This document shows, piece by piece, positions 1 through 18,456 of a stretch of DNA of 39,098 bases. A program made the translations under genes and the position numbers. The stretch is from positions 1 to 39,098 of the forward strand of contig JAICEE010000003.1 in NCBI GenBank assembly GCA_025924355.1. Direction: 5' to 3'. This stretch comes from Nitrososphaera sp. (GTDB taxonomy: Archaea; Thermoproteota; Nitrososphaeria; Nitrososphaerales; Nitrososphaeraceae). Below the pieces are notes generated by a model that was not told the origin of the DNA, did not search any database, and saw nothing but the letters and a program-made list of their open reading frames with translations. How positions within the stretch are numbered: the first letter of the stretch is position 1; the number at the start of each line of letters is the position of its first letter.

Positions 1-859
1 CATCTCGCACAAGCTCATTTATGTTCCAAGTGTTGACAGCATTACCTATCGCATCTATTGAAAGCGACTGCTTGCTTTCACACCAGTCCCAGATCCGCAA
101 AAATTCACGCAAAGAGGCAGCAGGCATGTCAAGAGCATTTTTAAGCATTCCAGATATCGCTGTCTTACCGCAGTAGTCAAGAGTAAACCTCAGTGTCTTA
201 CCTGGCTCAAGCACCTTGACTTGATGATTGATTGAAGAAGGGACACCAGCGCGGCTCCATCCAAGGCCTCCATACTCGTTGTTCAAGTCAAATACGACCA
301 CAAAGGCACCATGCTGCACCAATGTCTTGATAAGCATCTTGGATAGATGTGACTTGCCAGACTCTTTCTTACCTGTGATGACAGTCAGCTTGCCATCCAG
401 ATCTTCTGCGTAAATTTCAAACTCTTCTTCGTGACCAGCTCTGCCAACCGGGATCGGAAATACACCACATCTTCCAAGCAAAGAATTAAGCTCTTTCATT
501 GCAATCCGCCTTATCTTGGACTCAACTCTTGAAGGAAGCCACGTTACATCGCTTGAAAGTTTACCGTCATTGACTGATGCCCTTATTTTGGCGCGAAATA
601 CTCTGGCATCCCTTACAAGCCGGGACAGGCTCCCGATGTTAAGTGGGTCATGTAGGTTCTCCATGCTTGATGCGTTGACCACCTCTTCTTTGACAATGTC
701 TTCAATTAAAGCCTGAGATGAAAGGTACTCTTCATCATACACCTGTACAACCATGCTCCTGTTTCTGTCCTCTATGAGTAAGTAGTCTCCCTTGGCAGCC
801 GAATCTTCCTTCATGGCAAGTAAGAGCAGTTCGTTACCATTCTTTGATAGTATCTTCAT
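1..859 (-). CDS. herA: HerA-type DNA translocase/helicase, C-terminus cut by window edge
   Basis: This reading frame is absent from the ORF track because it runs off the left edge. The minus strand is open from the ATG at 859 to position 1. After about 160 residues of a beta-rich N-terminal (HAS-barrel-like) region comes a Walker A motif, GKKESGKSH, followed by a Walker B-like strand (FVVVFDLNNEYGG), as in DUF87/HerA ATPases. HerA is a hexameric DNA pump that works with the NurA nuclease in resecting DNA ends. The start ATG overlaps the nurA stop (ATGA), so the two genes are translationally coupled. Catalytic Glu and arginine-finger regions lie outside the window, so activity cannot be judged. 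Confidence 0.85.
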   Translation of the reverse strand, partial: MKILSKNGNELLLLAMKEDSAAKGDYLLIEDRNRSMVVQVYDEEYLSSQALIEDIVKEEVVNASSMENLHDPLNIGSLSRLVRDARVFRAKIRASVNDGKLSSDVTWLPSRVESKIRRIAMKELNSLLGRCGVFPIPVGRAGHEEEFEIYAEDLDGKLTVITGKKESGKSHLSKMLIKTLVQHGAFVVVFDLNNEYGGLGWSRAGVPSSINHQVKVLEPGKTLRFTLDYCGKTAISGMLKNALDMPAASLREFLRIWDWCESKQSLSIDAIGNAVNTWNINELVRD

Positions 860-1878
860 AGTGGTATCGACCCCAAAAGAGTTCTGCGTATATCATCTGC
901 AGCTAGCTCCATCACATCATACTTGTTCAGTATGTGGCTTCTGAGGCATGTCACCTCTGTACTTGTGAACGTAGAAATGTGATGTGCAAGCCTGAGGGTT
1001 TCGGGATAGCCACCTGCCAATACGTCATTTCCAAGCAGCATGCCAAGTGATTGGTTCACATCGCCTACAATGTCTGCTCGCAAAATAGGACTTCTACTGC
1101 CCTTTTCCAGCTTAACCATCAGGTTGCTGCCAATAATGTTCCTGATCAAGCTTCTGATGATATCCTCAACTTCAATGTAGGCCGGTCCTGGCACTTTTGT
1201 TAATGGAGCAGCCGCCCTATCTAACGCCTTGAGCCTAGTGCTCTTGCTAATCCCTACAAGCATGTTCTTTCGGAGAACGCTGCTCTCTGAAATATTGCTT
1301 ATACGACAGTCTCTCTCTTCAAAGATCGACGCTTTGAGTGAGCCGTCAACTAGAATTATTGAATTTGTAAAGTGGCTTGCAATCTCTTTCTGGACGGCTC
1401 TCTCTACGCGTACTCTTATCAGACGCTTCGCCAAGTCATCATCTAAGAGAACCAGCCTTGAGAGCCGCTCTTCCAGTTCTGATTCATGAACTGTCTTTTC
1501 GCTTAGATAGAACAACCCCGGACCTATCTTGAAATGCATGAGAGTGCGCCCAGCATAGGCTGTAGCAAGGCCACACTTAATGCCATAGAGGCTTCCATCT
1601 TCTGTCTCAGCTAGCTTGATGCTACTAGAGTCTATAGCCGCCACAAGTGCATTCTCTTTGATCGGGCAAATAGTAGTTATCGTTGTTGTACTGTAGGGAT
1701 TAGATCTCATGCCCCATCCATCAACTGGCATCATTTTCTTGTCGTCATAGCAAAACACAATTTTCTTCCCTTTTAGCACGTCAAGCTTTGGAGCAAGACA
1801 CTTGCTCACTGATTCCCCTATGTCGAGATCCTTTAGACTCAAGACATTGTCTGAAAGAAGTGTTTTTTGATTGTTCAT
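856..1878 (-). CDS. nurA: NurA 5'-3' nuclease
   Basis: NurA is the nuclease partner of HerA in archaeal homologous-recombination end resection. The protein has the family metal-binding opening, AAIDSSS, with the Asp near residue 83, followed by the beta-strand and helix pattern of the NurA fold. The ORF track begins at a TTG (1905), but the ATG at 1878 is preferred: it gives 340 residues, and an AT-rich TATA-like stretch (about 1907-1920) sits at the right distance for a leaderless mRNA. The stop overlaps the herA start by four bases. No mre11/rad50 pair is present in the window; the phosphoesterase at 18.8 kb is a different subfamily. Confidence 0.85.
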   Translation of the reverse strand: MNNQKTLLSDNVLSLKDLDIGESVSKCLAPKLDVLKGKKIVFCYDDKKMMPVDGWGMRSNPYSTTTITTICPIKENALVAAIDSSSIKLAETEDGSLYGIKCGLATAYAGRTLMHFKIGPGLFYLSEKTVHESELEERLSRLVLLDDDLAKRLIRVRVERAVQKEIASHFTNSIILVDGSLKASIFEERDCRISNISESSVLRKNMLVGISKSTRLKALDRAAAPLTKVPGPAYIEVEDIIRSLIRNIIGSNLMVKLEKGSRSPILRADIVGDVNQSLGMLLGNDVLAGGYPETLRLAHHISTFTSTEVTCLRSHILNKYDVMELAADDIRRTLLGSIPL

Positions 1879-1987
1879 GTTGCTCAACAATATCTGCGGG
1901 CACAACTATATTAATATTGCTCAACATGATCAATATGGCCAGCAACAGATTTATCAATAGCAGCCTGAAAGGTATATTTAAGCTAAT

Positions 1988-2488
1988 ATGAGCAGCCCTC
2001 CTGCTGAGGAAGTCAAGATAAGGCTTAAGCACGGTCAATGGGAAATAGAGGTAGTCTGCATTGAAAGTCGGGTTAAGCAGGTAGTTGAAAGCGTGCTCTC
2101 AAGCCTTGATACTACCAAGTTGATAGGGCCAGAAGTGCAGAGTCAGCTCGATGCGTTGAGGCGAGAAATAGACTCCTTAAAGACAAGAACGATCGCTGAA
2201 CTCATGCCGGAGGGGCAGCAGCAACAGCAAAAGGTGACAACCAAGAGTGGTATAACATGCAGGGGCCTATTGGAAAGTCTCTGGTTCGAAGGGCATTTTG
2301 TTAGTGAAAGGTCTCTTGGTGAAGTGCATGAAGAGCTATCAAGAAGAGGCTACAACTACGACAGGACTGCAGTCTCGCATTCGCTTACAGATATGGTGCG
2401 AGAAAACATCTTGACAAGAATCGGAACAATGCGCAATTACCGCTACATACAGAAAAGGCCACCAAATAGCACTACTGCGCAGGACTGA
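1988..2488 (+). CDS. Winged-helix domain protein, divergent from nurA-herA
   Basis: Function unknown. The 166-residue protein has three parts: an N-terminal beta hairpin with an amphipathic helix (residues about 8-40, VKIRLKHGQWEIEV), a short coiled-coil with a glutamine run (residues about 50-80), and a C-terminal winged-helix-like domain (about 88-155, with VSHSLTDMVRENILTR as candidate recognition helix). It is divergent from nurA, so a promoter region of about 110 bp is shared. Its 3' end overlaps the next gene, which lies on the opposite strand, by 17 bp. That gene has a similar architecture, suggesting distant paralogues. DNA binding is inferred from the fold only. Confidence 0.7.
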   Translation: MSSPPAEEVKIRLKHGQWEIEVVCIESRVKQVVESVLSSLDTTKLIGPEVQSQLDALRREIDSLKTRTIAELMPEGQQQQQKVTTKSGITCRGLLESLWFEGHFVSERSLGEVHEELSRRGYNYDRTAVSHSLTDMVRENILTRIGTMRNYRYIQKRPPNSTTAQD

Positions 2489-2987
2489 TCTTTTTCGCTA
2501 TCGTAGAATTGAGCCAGTGGATACCTGCTGTCGTTATCCTATATTTGCTCGGCTCTTTTTCGTCACGTGCGACGTGGCCGGCCTTAACCATCTCAGATAT
2601 TCTGGAGCTTATGGACTTTGGGTTGAGCGCCGTAGCAGTATGAATATCTGATACCTGCATAGAACTGTCCTGCAGTCTGCCAAGATCCTTTGCAATTCTG
2701 GCAGCTACGAGCTGCAGAGCTACTATATCCTTATCAGACAACTTGACAGCGGTATCTAGGATTACACGAGGACCCTCTGGTGTGATCTTGATGACTTGGG
2801 AATATGTTTCGATGAGCTCTTGTGCTGCATAGTTGAGTTGGATCTTTCTTGCAAGATCCATTGAAGGCACCTGCTTAAACAGAAAGTTCATCACAGAAGC
2901 TGTGACAGTCTCCGCAGAGCCGCTGAACTCAACCTTTACGTCGCCTATGGTTATGGTGGCGTTAACATCATTTTCAGCTTGGCTCAT
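2472..2987 (-). CDS. Winged-helix domain protein, possible paralogue of the convergent gene
   Basis: Function unknown. The ORF track start at 3086 runs through a poorly conserved-looking leader, so the ATG at 2987 (MSQAENDVNATIT) is chosen, giving 171 residues. The N-terminus is a beta hairpin plus helix (VKVEFSGSAETVTASVMNFL). The middle is helical, and the C-terminus (about 110-165) is a MarR/ArsR-like winged helix with the pattern SKYRITTAGIHWL in the wing and final helix. It converges on and overlaps the gene at 1988-2488. The shared layout suggests that both came from one ancestor and may act on the same targets, but no function can be assigned. Confidence 0.7.
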   Translation of the reverse strand: MSQAENDVNATITIGDVKVEFSGSAETVTASVMNFLFKQVPSMDLARKIQLNYAAQELIETYSQVIKITPEGPRVILDTAVKLSDKDIVALQLVAARIAKDLGRLQDSSMQVSDIHTATALNPKSISSRISEMVKAGHVARDEKEPSKYRITTAGIHWLNSTIAKKISPAQ

Positions 2988-3051: not shown

Positions 3052-3675
3052 TCACTCCCTGTTCTTCCTTCTCCTATAGAGTACATAGGTTACTCCAAGC
3101 AAGCCTCCTGACAGTGCGATGCTTATCACCGTAGCGCTGATATCTCTCTCAATTGCTGTGCACATAAATTCGCCGATAGAGCAGCCAGCAGCAAAGAAGA
3201 CACCATTCCAAGCAGAATGTGTAATCACTGAAAACCAACCCTTGCCGCTGATCCATGTCCTTAGGCTAAAGAAAAGGGATGGAAGCACAAAGAGCAGGTT
3301 GCCAAACGCAAGGCTGTTGACGGAAAGCGTATCCGTATTGAAAAGATGTATCCCGACCCACACAGCTCCAGTGACAAGGACAGAGTAGGCATTTCCAAAT
3401 ATGTAAAATGGGATGCCAAAGAATATCGTCTCTTCTATTGGTCCTGCGGCGAGTACTGACAATAGTGATCTTGGGATGCTTGGCTGCTCATAGTCCGGAA
3501 GAACCTGCTCAATCAGAGGCGAGACTGCAAGAAGCAGAAGAATGCCAATCCCGTGGTAAAACAACAACATCTTTGTGAGGTAGCCTACTGAAGTGCGCCT
3601 GTATTTGGACAGCCATGACCTAGGATGAAAGTCCGCCTTTTCTTCAGTAAATCTCCCTGCCAACGGGCATAGCAT
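3052..3675 (-). CDS. CPBP (CAAX/Abi) family membrane protease
   Basis: This is a polytopic membrane protein of about 207 residues and five to six hydrophobic segments. Three family motifs are visible: a di-glutamate motif, EETIFFGIP (residues about 80-88); a single His in a membrane helix (VWVGIHLFN); and a C-terminal HSAWN motif. These correspond to CPBP intramembrane metalloprotease motifs 1-3. The Arg usual in motif 1 (EExxxR) is replaced by Phe. CPBP enzymes cleave prenylated or other membrane-linked peptides, or process bacteriocin-like peptides; the substrate here is unknown. The ATG at 3675 is the first start. It is followed on the same strand by the winged-helix gene after a 64-bp gap. 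Confidence 0.75.
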   Translation of the reverse strand: MLCPLAGRFTEEKADFHPRSWLSKYRRTSVGYLTKMLLFYHGIGILLLLAVSPLIEQVLPDYEQPSIPRSLLSVLAAGPIEETIFFGIPFYIFGNAYSVLVTGAVWVGIHLFNTDTLSVNSLAFGNLLFVLPSLFFSLRTWISGKGWFSVITHSAWNGVFFAAGCSIGEFMCTAIERDISATVISIALSGGLLGVTYVLYRRRKNRE

Positions 3676-4035: not shown

Positions 4036-5997
4036 TTACTTGTTGACCATCTTGCTCATCTTATCCTTCAGCATTGCATTTACCTTTTGACCATTGGCCC
4101 TGCCCCTGTATTCTGCCATTGCCCTTCCCATGAGTGTGCTCAACGCATTCGCGCCTTTTTCTTTGATTATTGCCATGTTGTTGCTTATTATCCTATCAAG
4201 TCCTTTGCTCAGCTCTTCGTCACTTATTGAAAACGCCCCTACAGCCCCAATGGCTGCGTCAACGATCTTTGCCACCATATCTTCCTTTGCATTTATCTGT
4301 TCATTGACACTCTTCACTATGGTCGGCTCATTTTTCATCAGCTTTTCAAATATCAAGACAACTGATTCTTTTGTTATGGAGCCTCTGTCAAGCCTTGTAA
4401 AAATATCTTTTATCACATGATCTGTCAAGACGGAAGCATCTAATCCCTGCCTTTGCAAGCTTGTGAGATCTTCTGTCAACTTAGACGCGATAAATGTAGG
4501 TTGTACCTCTGTCTTGCTTGCAATCTCCTCAAACACGTTAAGGTATTCAGAGTCAAAGATCTGACTTGCCAGCTTCTTGTTGAGATTGTATTTATTTGCA
4601 AGTGAGTCCACAATCTCATCCCACTGTCTTGGGGCCTTATCTGCAAGCGACACAAGCATCGAGTCAGTGATCGCAATCGGCAGTATGTCTGTCTCGGGGT
4701 ACATCCTTGCTACACCAGGCCTCGGCCTTAAGAATACCGTGTTGCCCTCGGGGGTTGCTGCGCGGGTTTCAGCAGGAACACCATCGACTGCAGCCTTAAG
4801 CCGCCGAATTATTGAGTCAGAGGCGAACCTGACTTTCTCAGTTGGACCTCCTAAGATAACGAAAGCGTCGTTGTCATTCATTTGTAGTCTTTGCTTGACT
4901 GCTGCAACTTCTTCCTCCGTTATTCCATAACTTGGAAGCTCATCAGAATGGAATACCCCATCTATATCATAAAACTTGACTAGCTTGCCGAGCTCTCTTC
5001 CAAGTCTGATGTCATTGTAGGGCTCAAAGCCGATCATGCCTGCAAACCCTGGCACCTTTATCGCTATGATCACCCCTCCGCCTTCAAGAATCTTTTTGAC
5101 AATTCTTGAAGACGGCTTGTTGCCAAGAATGTCAGTGACATCTTCAATTCTGTCGCCTACTTTTTTGATGTCAACATTCTTTTCTTTCAATTTCTGCGCG
5201 ATTACTATTAAGCCGTATTGCCTTTGCATCTCATGCTCGATTACTTTTACTAACTGATCGAGCTGCTGCACACCCTTGACCTCAACCACGGCACCATTCT
5301 GTATCGAGATGTTGATGTCTTGTCTGATGCTGCCAAGCCCACGTGCAACCCGCTTGCTTGCTCGAAGGAGCCTGCCCAACGTGAGGGCAACCTGCATGAT
5401 TTCGCTAGGCCTGCCCGTCACCGGTTCAAGCGCAATTTCCACAAGTGGCACGCCCAGTCTATCAAGGCCGAACTTGCGAGCTCCCTCTTCATCGCCTATT
5501 AATTTAGCTGCGTCTTCTTCAAGACAGATGCTTTGAACTCCAATTCGCTTGCCTGCAATATCGAGATAGCCGCCAGATGCAACAAGCATCGTACGCTGAA
5601 AACCAGTAGTATTTGAGCCATCTATCACTATCTTACGCATGACATGAATCTCATGCATAATCTTAGAGTGGAGTGCAAGTGAAAATATCAACGCAGTTTC
5701 AAGTGCCTCTTTGGTGACATCATGTGGAGGTTCCTCATCCGCCTCTACAAGGCAGCTAGAACCAAAAGCCGCCTGATACTCAACAGTGTGCATCTTCGAA
5801 AACTCAAACATTGCGGCTGGGTCATATGCGCCAAGCTCGCTTTGAGTTGGCCGCAGCTTGCGTACAAATAAACTATCATATTCTTTTGCTTCTTCGCAGC
5901 TGCAGTTGCAGAACAGCTTGCTCTTTGTGGCTAGCTGCTGATGTATTTCAAAGCCTACCTTGAGGTTCAAAGATACTGGCTCTAGGGTAAATTCCAC
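4036..5997 (-). CDS. gatE: Glutamyl-tRNA(Gln) amidotransferase subunit E
   Basis: GatE pairs with GatD in the archaea-specific GatDE enzyme, which converts Glu-tRNA(Gln) to Gln-tRNA(Gln). GatE binds the tRNA and carries the kinase/transamidase site. The 653-residue protein has the GatB/E signature GFEIHQQL at residues 15-22 with nearby Cys residues (CNCSC), an AspRS-like insertion in the middle, and a helical YqeY-like tail. The start is GTG at 5997. It ends with tandem TAA TAA. It lies downstream of gatD on the same strand, separated by about 440 bp holding a broken small ORF. The length is normal to slightly long for archaeal GatE. Confidence 0.95.
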   Translation of the reverse strand: MEFTLEPVSLNLKVGFEIHQQLATKSKLFCNCSCEEAKEYDSLFVRKLRPTQSELGAYDPAAMFEFSKMHTVEYQAAFGSSCLVEADEEPPHDVTKEALETALIFSLALHSKIMHEIHVMRKIVIDGSNTTGFQRTMLVASGGYLDIAGKRIGVQSICLEEDAAKLIGDEEGARKFGLDRLGVPLVEIALEPVTGRPSEIMQVALTLGRLLRASKRVARGLGSIRQDINISIQNGAVVEVKGVQQLDQLVKVIEHEMQRQYGLIVIAQKLKEKNVDIKKVGDRIEDVTDILGNKPSSRIVKKILEGGGVIIAIKVPGFAGMIGFEPYNDIRLGRELGKLVKFYDIDGVFHSDELPSYGITEEEVAAVKQRLQMNDNDAFVILGGPTEKVRFASDSIIRRLKAAVDGVPAETRAATPEGNTVFLRPRPGVARMYPETDILPIAITDSMLVSLADKAPRQWDEIVDSLANKYNLNKKLASQIFDSEYLNVFEEIASKTEVQPTFIASKLTEDLTSLQRQGLDASVLTDHVIKDIFTRLDRGSITKESVVLIFEKLMKNEPTIVKSVNEQINAKEDMVAKIVDAAIGAVGAFSISDEELSKGLDRIISNNMAIIKEKGANALSTLMGRAMAEYRGRANGQKVNAMLKDKMSKMVNK

Positions 5998-16558: not shown

Positions 16559-17841
16559 CGGCCTATCGCCCTTCTTGCAATATCTCTCCTGTAATAGTGG
16601 TCGTTTTCTCCCCACCGTATTTTCCTGACAGCGGAGTAGGCATTGTCTATCGCCCTTCTTGCATCCTCTCCAAGCGCAGTTACCGCTAAAACTCTTCCGC
16701 CATTAGTCACAATCCTGCCCTGCAAGTCCCTTGCTGTCCCAGCATGAAAAACCATGACATGTGGCCCAAATTCTGAGTTAAGACCCTCTATGACTTTGCC
16801 CTTTTCGTAACTGCTCGGATATCCCCTTGCGGCCATTATCACACACACGGCGGTCTCATTCTTCCATTCGATCTGCGACATTGACTCGAGTCGCCCGTCC
16901 ACTGCTGCATTGACGTACTCATAAAGGTCAGGCTTCATTCTCATCATTATGGGCTGGCACTCTGGATCGCCCATTCTTACGTTGAATTCAAGCACGTAGG
17001 GTTTTTTTGTAATTTCGTCAATCATCATGCCGGCATAGAGAAAGCCCTTGAATGGAGTGCCGCGCTTTCTTATTGCAATCATAGCTCGCTGCATCACGTC
17101 TTTTACTATCTTTTCATGAAGGTCGCTGTCAATCATTGGTGTAGGAGAATAGGCTCCCATGCCACCAGTGTTGGGACCTTTGTCGTCATCACATATCCGC
17201 TTGTGATCTTGGCTTGGAGCAAGAGGCATTATTGTTTTGCCATCGCACAGAGCAATGAAGGATACCTCTTCGCCAGAAAGCCGCTCTTCAATGACTACTC
17301 TAGTACCCGCAGCGTCAAACTCCTTCTTGATCATCATGCTGTCTATCACTGCAATAGCTTGCTCGGCGCTGTCACATACTACTACACCTTTGCCTGCTGC
17401 AAGGCCATCAGCCTTGATAACTTGCGGTCTGCTCTGCCTGACAACATAGTCCTTGGCCTTTTGTGCATCAGAGAATATTGCAAATTCAGGAGTCCGGATA
17501 CCTGCATCATGCATGAACTCTTTGGCAAAAGCCTTGCTGGTTTCAAGCCTAGCCGGCTCTTTCCTAGGTCCAAGAACGCGCAGACCCTCTTTTTCAAAGG
17601 CATCGATAATTCCAAGCGAGAGAGGCTCTTCAGGACCCACAACGGTCAGCAGGTTGTTCTGGCGCTTTGCGAATGACACCAATTTGTCGATGTCATTGTG
17701 CTTGATATCGATATTTTCAGATGTACCTCCATTGCCTGGAGCAAAATAGATCTTGCTTACGTGTTTGCTCTGTGCAATCTTCCAACCAAGAGCGTGCTCT
17801 CTGGCTCCGAAACCAACGATAAGAATGTTGTCAGACGCCAC
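16555..17841 (-). CDS. purD: Phosphoribosylamine--glycine ligase
   Basis: Makes glycinamide ribonucleotide from phosphoribosylamine, Gly and ATP (purine step 2). The N-terminal motif ILIVGFGAREHALGWK and the ATP-grasp segments VIKADGLAAGKGVVVCDS, GPNTGGMGAYSPTP and LEFNVRMGDPECQPIM are all present. The ORF track starts 26 codons too early at a TTG (17919). The GTG at 17841 is chosen because the family starts here and a TATA-like TTTATTAG (17864-17871) lies about 26 bp before it, fitting a leaderless mRNA. This gives 428 residues, the normal length. It converges on the cyclo-ligase gene with shared stop bases. Confidence 0.95.
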   Translation of the reverse strand: MASDNILIVGFGAREHALGWKIAQSKHVSKIYFAPGNGGTSENIDIKHNDIDKLVSFAKRQNNLLTVVGPEEPLSLGIIDAFEKEGLRVLGPRKEPARLETSKAFAKEFMHDAGIRTPEFAIFSDAQKAKDYVVRQSRPQVIKADGLAAGKGVVVCDSAEQAIAVIDSMMIKKEFDAAGTRVVIEERLSGEEVSFIALCDGKTIMPLAPSQDHKRICDDDKGPNTGGMGAYSPTPMIDSDLHEKIVKDVMQRAMIAIRKRGTPFKGFLYAGMMIDEITKKPYVLEFNVRMGDPECQPIMMRMKPDLYEYVNAAVDGRLESMSQIEWKNETAVCVIMAARGYPSSYEKGKVIEGLNSEFGPHVMVFHAGTARDLQGRIVTNGGRVLAVTALGEDARRAIDNAYSAVRKIRWGENDHYYRRDIARRAIGR

Positions 17842-17863
17842 AATGAAGCCAAAAAACAGTCGG

Positions 17864-17871
17864 CTAATAAA
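17864..17871 (-). promoter_or_regulatory. TATA box of purD
   Basis: TTTATTAG on the minus strand, centred about 26 bp upstream of the GTG start at 17841. The spacing predicts a leaderless transcript and decides the start codon. It lies within 50 bp of the divergent KGG promoter. Confidence 0.5.
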
Positions 17872-17907
17872 CTGTTTGATTATGATTCTCATACTTTTTT
17901 CGTTTCT

Positions 17908-17916
17908 CCTTTTAAG
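17908..17916 (+). promoter_or_regulatory. TATA box of the KGG gene
   Basis: CCTTTTAAG on the plus strand, centred about 26 bp before the ATG at 17938. It supports that ATG rather than the ORF-track start at 17698, which lies inside purD. Confidence 0.5.
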
Positions 17917-17937
17917 CAATATGCGTGTCTACTTTCC

Positions 17938-18456
17938 ATGGGCTCAGAGCAGGCTGCATCTGATAGAGAGCGCGCTCGACGAGGCCTTGCGTCTGCCAAC
18001 GAAGAGACGAGGCAACGAGTAGCACGGAAAGGTGGTATTGCCCCGCACCAGAAGAGGGGCCTGGCCGCGGCAAATTCGGACACGAGACTAAGGGTCGCAA
18101 AGGCAGGTGGAGAAGCACGGGCAAACGATAGAGAAGGTCTCAGCGAGGCAGGAAGGCGGGGCGGCGAAGTCGTTAAGGAGCGCTACGGTGCGGAATTTTA
18201 TCGAGAAATAGGAGAAAAAGGCGGTGGAGCTGTTAAGGAGCGCTACGGTGCGGAATTTTATAGTGAGATTGGCAAGCGGGGCGGTGAGACTGTCAAGCAG
18301 GAGCGCGGAGCAGAGTACTATAGCACTATTGGAAGAAAGGGTGGCGAAGCAAGGACAACAGTAGAAAAGCCTGAAGTTCACCAGAATCAGCAGCCGCCGC
18401 CAACTGATACTACGCAGCCAAGTTCTACCAATACTCAAGTATCAACTACGGCCTAA
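17938..18456 (+). CDS. KGG-repeat stress protein
   Basis: A 172-residue, highly charged protein. From about residue 15 it is built of tandem 20-residue units, each ending in a Gly-Gly motif (KGG, RGG or AGG). Two consecutive units share ERYGAEFY. A 30-bp stretch is repeated exactly 60 bp apart. This is the KGG (GsiB-like, stress-induced, often disordered and hydrophilic) family. A Pro/Gln/Thr-rich tail follows. The ORF-track start at 17698 is a shadow extension over purD. It converges on and overlaps the SWIM gene by 15 bp. A role in desiccation or osmotic stress is inferred from the family. Confidence 0.85.
   Translation: MGSEQAASDRERARRGLASANEETRQRVARKGGIAPHQKRGLAAANSDTRLRVAKAGGEARANDREGLSEAGRRGGEVVKERYGAEFYREIGEKGGGAVKERYGAEFYSEIGKRGGETVKQERGAEYYSTIGRKGGEARTTVEKPEVHQNQQPPPTDTTQPSSTNTQVSTTA
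18172..18261 (+). repeat. Exact 30-bp direct repeat, 60-bp period, inside the KGG gene
   Basis: The sequence beginning GTTAAGGAGCGCTACGGTGC (30 bp) occurs at 18172-18201 and again at 18232-18261 without change. Flanking 20-residue units are more diverged, so this copy pair is a recent duplication or has been homogenised. Confidence 0.85.

Follow-up and report, generated by a model that had tools for sequence, protein, structure and literature searches.

Divergently encoded autoregulatory repressors are a general regulatory arrangement in bacteria and archaea. The archaeal genes for the NurA nuclease and the HerA ATPase are adjacent in the herA-mre11-rad50-nurA operon of Sulfolobales and Thermococcales (PMC7690668). 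Treatment of Saccharolobus with the DNA-damaging agent NQO induces this operon, which also falls under the regulation of the Orc1-2-centered DNA damage response (PMC10470591). Our literature searches returned no nurA-herA regulator for thaumarchaea. The way in which these archaea and their relatives turn on end resection is of interest, and the Saccharolobus damage response relies on other proteins.

A thaumarchaeal nurA-herA locus encodes two small winged-helix proteins next to nurA. The analyzed stretch of DNA (the window, 39,098 nucleotides) opens contig C3 in a Nitrososphaera-like genome that is 66% complete. An initial annotation had described nurA-herA beside two converging winged-helix genes, here termed A and B, with 3' ends overlapping by 17 bp. 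Open reading frames and coordinates as well as the Pfam matches of NurA and HerA agree with this description (Table 1). The herA gene is full-length in relatives and adjoins nurA in every relative with enough contig. A and B are arranged tail to tail and have positions 2472-2488 in common; in relatives their ends overlap or lie up to ca. 100 bp apart, and the 17-bp overlap is incidental and not conserved. A motif check for mre11 and rad50 in selected loci placed mre11 near herA only in L266; the window itself starts inside herA. Only in Nitrososphaera-type loci are B and gatE separated by the Rce1-like CAAX-type protease gene. Further into the window, an open reading frame at 17698-18456 (+) encodes many repeats of the type GGExVKERYGAEFYxxIGxKGG, which we take to resemble stress-induced repeat proteins. 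The window's own genome also contains a second, weak NurA-like match (G000:C14:11349-11819, E 7.5e-8).

Table 1. Genes and operator-like elements at the nurA-herA end of the window.
Feature	Position	Strand	Description
herA	2-859	-	3' part missing at contig start; PF01935 E 4.3e-8, above cut-off on the fragment
nurA	856-1878	-	nuclease gene in divergent orientation to A; PF09376 match above cut-off (E 2e-9); profile A3
Operator-like site 1, TTGTTCATGTTGCTCAA	1871-1887	.	two WTGnnCAW units (1871, 1880) with 9-bp spacing, covering the nurA start codon; conserved in relatives
TATA-like element, TATATTAATA	1907-1916	.	between the two sites; possibly common to nurA and A
Operator-like site 2, TTGCTCAACATGATCAATATGGCCAG	1917-1942	.	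units at 1917 and 1926, degenerate unit at 1935; 9-bp period; follows TATATTAATA
A	1988-2488	+	166 aa; beta-hairpin-helix at the N-terminus and highly conserved winged helix at the C-terminus, joined by a variable linker; proposed autoregulator
B	2472-2987	-	171 aa; paralog and proposed partner; beta-hairpin-helix at the N-terminus, helices and a second hairpin in the middle, winged helix at the C-terminus
CAAX-type membrane protease gene	3052-3675	-	between B and gatE
gatE	4036-5997	-	

Profile comparisons support a common origin of A and B. Pairwise BLASTP of A against B gave no signal. We therefore give here the hhalign results for the wider families, which include C and D, two further small genes adjoining B in other lineages. 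These comparisons scored 84.6% for A-B (E 7e-6), 99.5% for A-C, 93.7% for B-C, 99.3% for B-D and 93.0% for C-D, while A-D taken alone was not significant; decoys (reversed profiles and NurA) reached at most 2.3%. With the N-terminal part alone, A and B match at 95.8% (E 6.6e-9), and with the winged-helix part alone the match is weak for A-B (33%) and strong for A-C (98.8%). In addition, the profiles of A and B both match one C protein over its full length. These matches and the clean decoys support A, B, C and D as distant members of one archaeal family of small, predicted DNA-binding proteins. The initial annotation had suggested that A and B are paralogs and had named unrelated N-terminal folds as the outcome that would speak against it. 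The profile-profile comparison instead shows homology of the N-terminal domains, C and D bridge the two proteins and AlphaFold models agree. The undetectable pairwise similarity and the commonness of the winged-helix fold could still suggest unrelated winged-helix proteins that are neighbors by chance and whose function is not tied to nurA-herA, but this reading is largely refuted by the N-terminal match, the bridging families and a gene linkage kept across classes, and we consider it very improbable.

The predicted structures of A and B correspond at both ends and differ in the middle. AlphaFold models calculated from alignments of 36 (A) and 33 (B) orthologs are of moderate confidence, with pLDDT values of 76 and 81. 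The A model consists of two strands and a helix (E8-15, E18-25, H26-44), a further helix (H48-70) and a winged helix (91-155), the latter representing a DNA-binding domain predicted with pLDDT > 90 and yielding winged-helix matches in Foldseek. The B model contains E7-14, E17-24 and H25-39, helices at 41-62, a second hairpin (66-75), H85-101 and a winged helix (112-167). The N-terminal hairpin-helix (A 8-44, B 7-39), probably a dimerization element, and the C-terminal winged helix are thus collinear and common to both. The middle of A is a single low-confidence coiled-coil-like helix missing in deeper relatives, unlike the helices and second hairpin of B. The shared architecture proposed initially therefore holds for the two ends, but the "helical middle" included in it is not equivalent in the two proteins.

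A and B lack a curated family. Both score below every curated cut-off in Pfam and NCBIfam, including the MarR, BlaI and Fur families; some B orthologs reach MarR_2 and HTH_24 at low E-values. Searches with PADLOC and PHROGs returned generic winged-helix similarity and no defense or viral assignment. A PDB sequence search yielded no significant relative for A and only generic winged helices for B. Foldseek likewise returned only winged helices, none with E < 1e-3, and no fold match for the N-terminal element. The C-terminal domain of A has the fold of the BlaI/MecI, Fur/Zur and RTP winged helices and that of B the fold of MarR and of AspA from pNOB8 (Foldseek E 0.007-0.1), a likeness that stops at the winged helix. 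The hairpin-helix plus winged-helix family, conserved across classes, fills an annotation gap.

A and B are linked to nurA-herA in a range of archaea. A adjoins nurA in all 35 loci retrieved from other species; herA follows nurA in 34 of them, with the contig ending in the remaining one, and B faces A tail to tail in 34, including Bathyarchaeota (L034) and Caldarchaeum (L035). Linkage to nurA-herA is thus kept across Nitrososphaeria, Bathyarchaeota and Caldarchaeum-type archaea, the opposite of the missing linkage that had been named as the second outcome contradicting the initial annotation. To define co-occurrence, we surveyed 121 genomes of the order and counted NurA matches with E < 1e-30 as this NurA type. 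It is present in 81 genomes, 81 of which encode A and 77 B (raw counts, shared ancestry ignored). In families f7, f12 and f13, A stays at nurA and B is located elsewhere in the genome. Four genomes of genus g5 (G069, G092, G098 and G110; 91-97% complete) contain no detectable NurA, A or B. Only four of the 121 genomes, all of them small and of genus g32 (L232-L235), encode A without this NurA type; they have lost nurA-herA and kept A, C and B, organized as an A-C-B operon in L232-L234, where the contig shows the arrangement. At the scale of the phylum, strong A matches occur in 80 genomes, 72 of which contain NurA; the remaining eight belong to f24, f29 and f37, plus one genome of f18. A, B and C persist in some genomes without this NurA-HerA, which extends their role beyond it. 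Family f9, probably Nitrosopumilaceae, possesses a distant, different NurA-HerA pair (L219-L226, L240) without A, B or the array described below. Another, weakly A-like gene with the start MAKIRVKFGxNEIEI is found in f9 loci L183-L186 and L188 away from nurA-herA, with no array upstream where checked.

The nurA/A intergenic region contains a conserved palindromic array, which is an addition to the initial annotation. WTGnnCAW palindromes are arranged in two clusters with 9-bp steps within each cluster and ca. 37 bp between them (from the unit at 1880 to site 2). The second cluster has the consensus TATTAATgTTGcgCAacaTGnnCAAtATGnnCAgcAac, and the TATA-like element between the clusters aligns as TATTAATA/TATAAATG in 45 relatives. 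Units taken singly are no rarity in the window (8 matches at one mismatch vs 5.1 expected), and the case for the array is consequently built on clustering, spacing and register, and conservation. The 130 nt upstream of A contain on average 3.69 units compared with 0.53 in dinucleotide shuffles (7-fold) and 0.15 in other windows. Each of the 58 distinct regions upstream of A equals or exceeds the highest window elsewhere in its locus, and the 9-bp and ca. 37-bp spacings are kept. The strict two-unit pattern occurs only at nurA/A in the same-genus genomes G083, G086 and G089. In more distant classes, a related array is located directly behind TATAAATG, just upstream of A. The array is weak at some A genes without this NurA, with one unit in L174 and none in L175. 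The two-base centers of the palindromes leave no loop and cannot form RNA hairpins, making a DNA site likelier than an RNA element. A genome-wide regulon was also considered and rejected: additional array-like matches are about as frequent as those of a reversed-pattern control in most genomes, and two such matches examined elsewhere are located inside an amoA-like reading frame.

The array tracks A rather than nurA or B. It is kept upstream of A in the four g32 genomes that have lost nurA-herA, B promoters lack it (mean 0.20 units, maximum 1, n = 61) and loci around non-cognate nurA genes contain scattered units only and no comparable array. The same observations bear on the identity of the protein that reads the array. 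Sequence alone cannot assign the binder, and another protein such as B, C or a general factor could read the array with A not being a regulator. A further candidate is an XRE-type regulator whose gene adjoins herA in several lineages and A where nurA-herA is lost (L029:4811-5533, L193, L195, L232, L234). However, the array stays at A both when B is encoded elsewhere in the genome and when nurA-herA is absent, B promoters are devoid of it, and array and A winged helix are both strongly conserved. We therefore consider a reader other than A unlikely.

Beyond the homology, gene linkage, co-occurrence and conserved, A-tracking array established by computation, we propose a somewhat better than even case for A as a local autoregulator of nurA-herA with B as its paralogous DNA-binding partner. 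Judging from its position, A most likely binds the 9-bp-period array between nurA and A, which flanks the presumed common TATA-like element and would overlie the start sites expected for nurA and A. In its bound state, A would repress nurA-herA as well as its own gene until a signal, possibly DNA damage, releases it. The NQO induction of the Saccharolobus operon makes a link to damage plausible. B most likely pairs with A or C via the N-terminal element and acts on DNA together with NurA-HerA. As expected for a divergently encoded repressor, dyad sites over the putative common promoter are conserved in relatives. The initial annotation had raised the possibility of either an accessory factor or a damage-responsive regulator. 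The conserved operator-like array between nurA and A is new evidence that strongly favors a regulatory role as such, irrespective of a possible response to damage.

Lineages without A encode paralogs co-directionally with nurA-herA. In f22, f31, f33, f34, f55 and f62, paralogs are located directly upstream of nurA-herA, for example in the abutting order D, B, B2, nurA, herA (L264) or in the order gatE, D, B, B2, C, nurA, herA (L266). Abutting co-directional paralogs and nurA-herA are found in L264-L268, L270, L271 and L273, an organization that suggests co-transcription. The promoters of the first genes of these operons carry repeated TACGT/AACGTT motifs, with at least 3 matches in seven of the eight loci and only 2 in L267, against background means of 0.07-0.42. 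This could indicate that the operator changed along with the regulator.

These operons also lend support to the accessory factor of the initial annotation, as their co-directional organization fits accessory subunits as well as regulators. The paralogs might be DNA-binding subunits of NurA-HerA involved in loading or substrate selection, with the array only autoregulating their dosage. The strong co-inheritance with this NurA type, the co-loss in g5 and the heteromer suggested by three to four paralogs with a common N-terminal element are consistent with such a role. In contrast, the A-C-B operon of g32 exists without nurA-herA, A occurs without this NurA in f24, f29 and f37, and the Nitrosopumilaceae-like NurA-HerA is found in genomes with neither A nor B. 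Mainly because of the operon arrangement in lineages without A, we regard accessory subunits as a possible, though not the probable, explanation. A reading that combines both roles can be put forward tentatively: the three to four winged-helix paralogs may assemble into a DNA-binding heteromer that regulates NurA-HerA and also acts together with it in most non-Sulfolobales Thermoproteota and that reads its own operator arrays, of the TTGnnCAA type in the presence of A and of the TACGT type in its absence. If true, this heteromer would add to archaeal DNA end resection a level of regulation that has not been described before. With a compact, genome-unique candidate operator next to a winged-helix gene of deep conservation, the question of resection control becomes testable.

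The locus can be compared with three described systems. As in the herA-mre11-rad50-nurA operon, nurA and herA are adjacent and belong to the same end-resection machinery, but here the neighboring winged-helix gene points away from nurA-herA and is accompanied by a palindromic array. The Orc1-2 response includes regulation of the herA-mre11-rad50-nurA operon; it involves another protein class and is spread over many genes, whereas the array described here is essentially unique per genome. Divergent autoregulatory repressors resemble the locus in that the gene of a small winged-helix protein is oriented away from its presumed target and dyads lie over a common promoter. The locus differs from them in its 9-bp-spaced dyad array and in an N-terminal beta-hairpin-helix without a Pfam or PDB match. 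Overall, the family of A, B, C and D is new, and the regulatory arrangement in which it is found is a familiar one.
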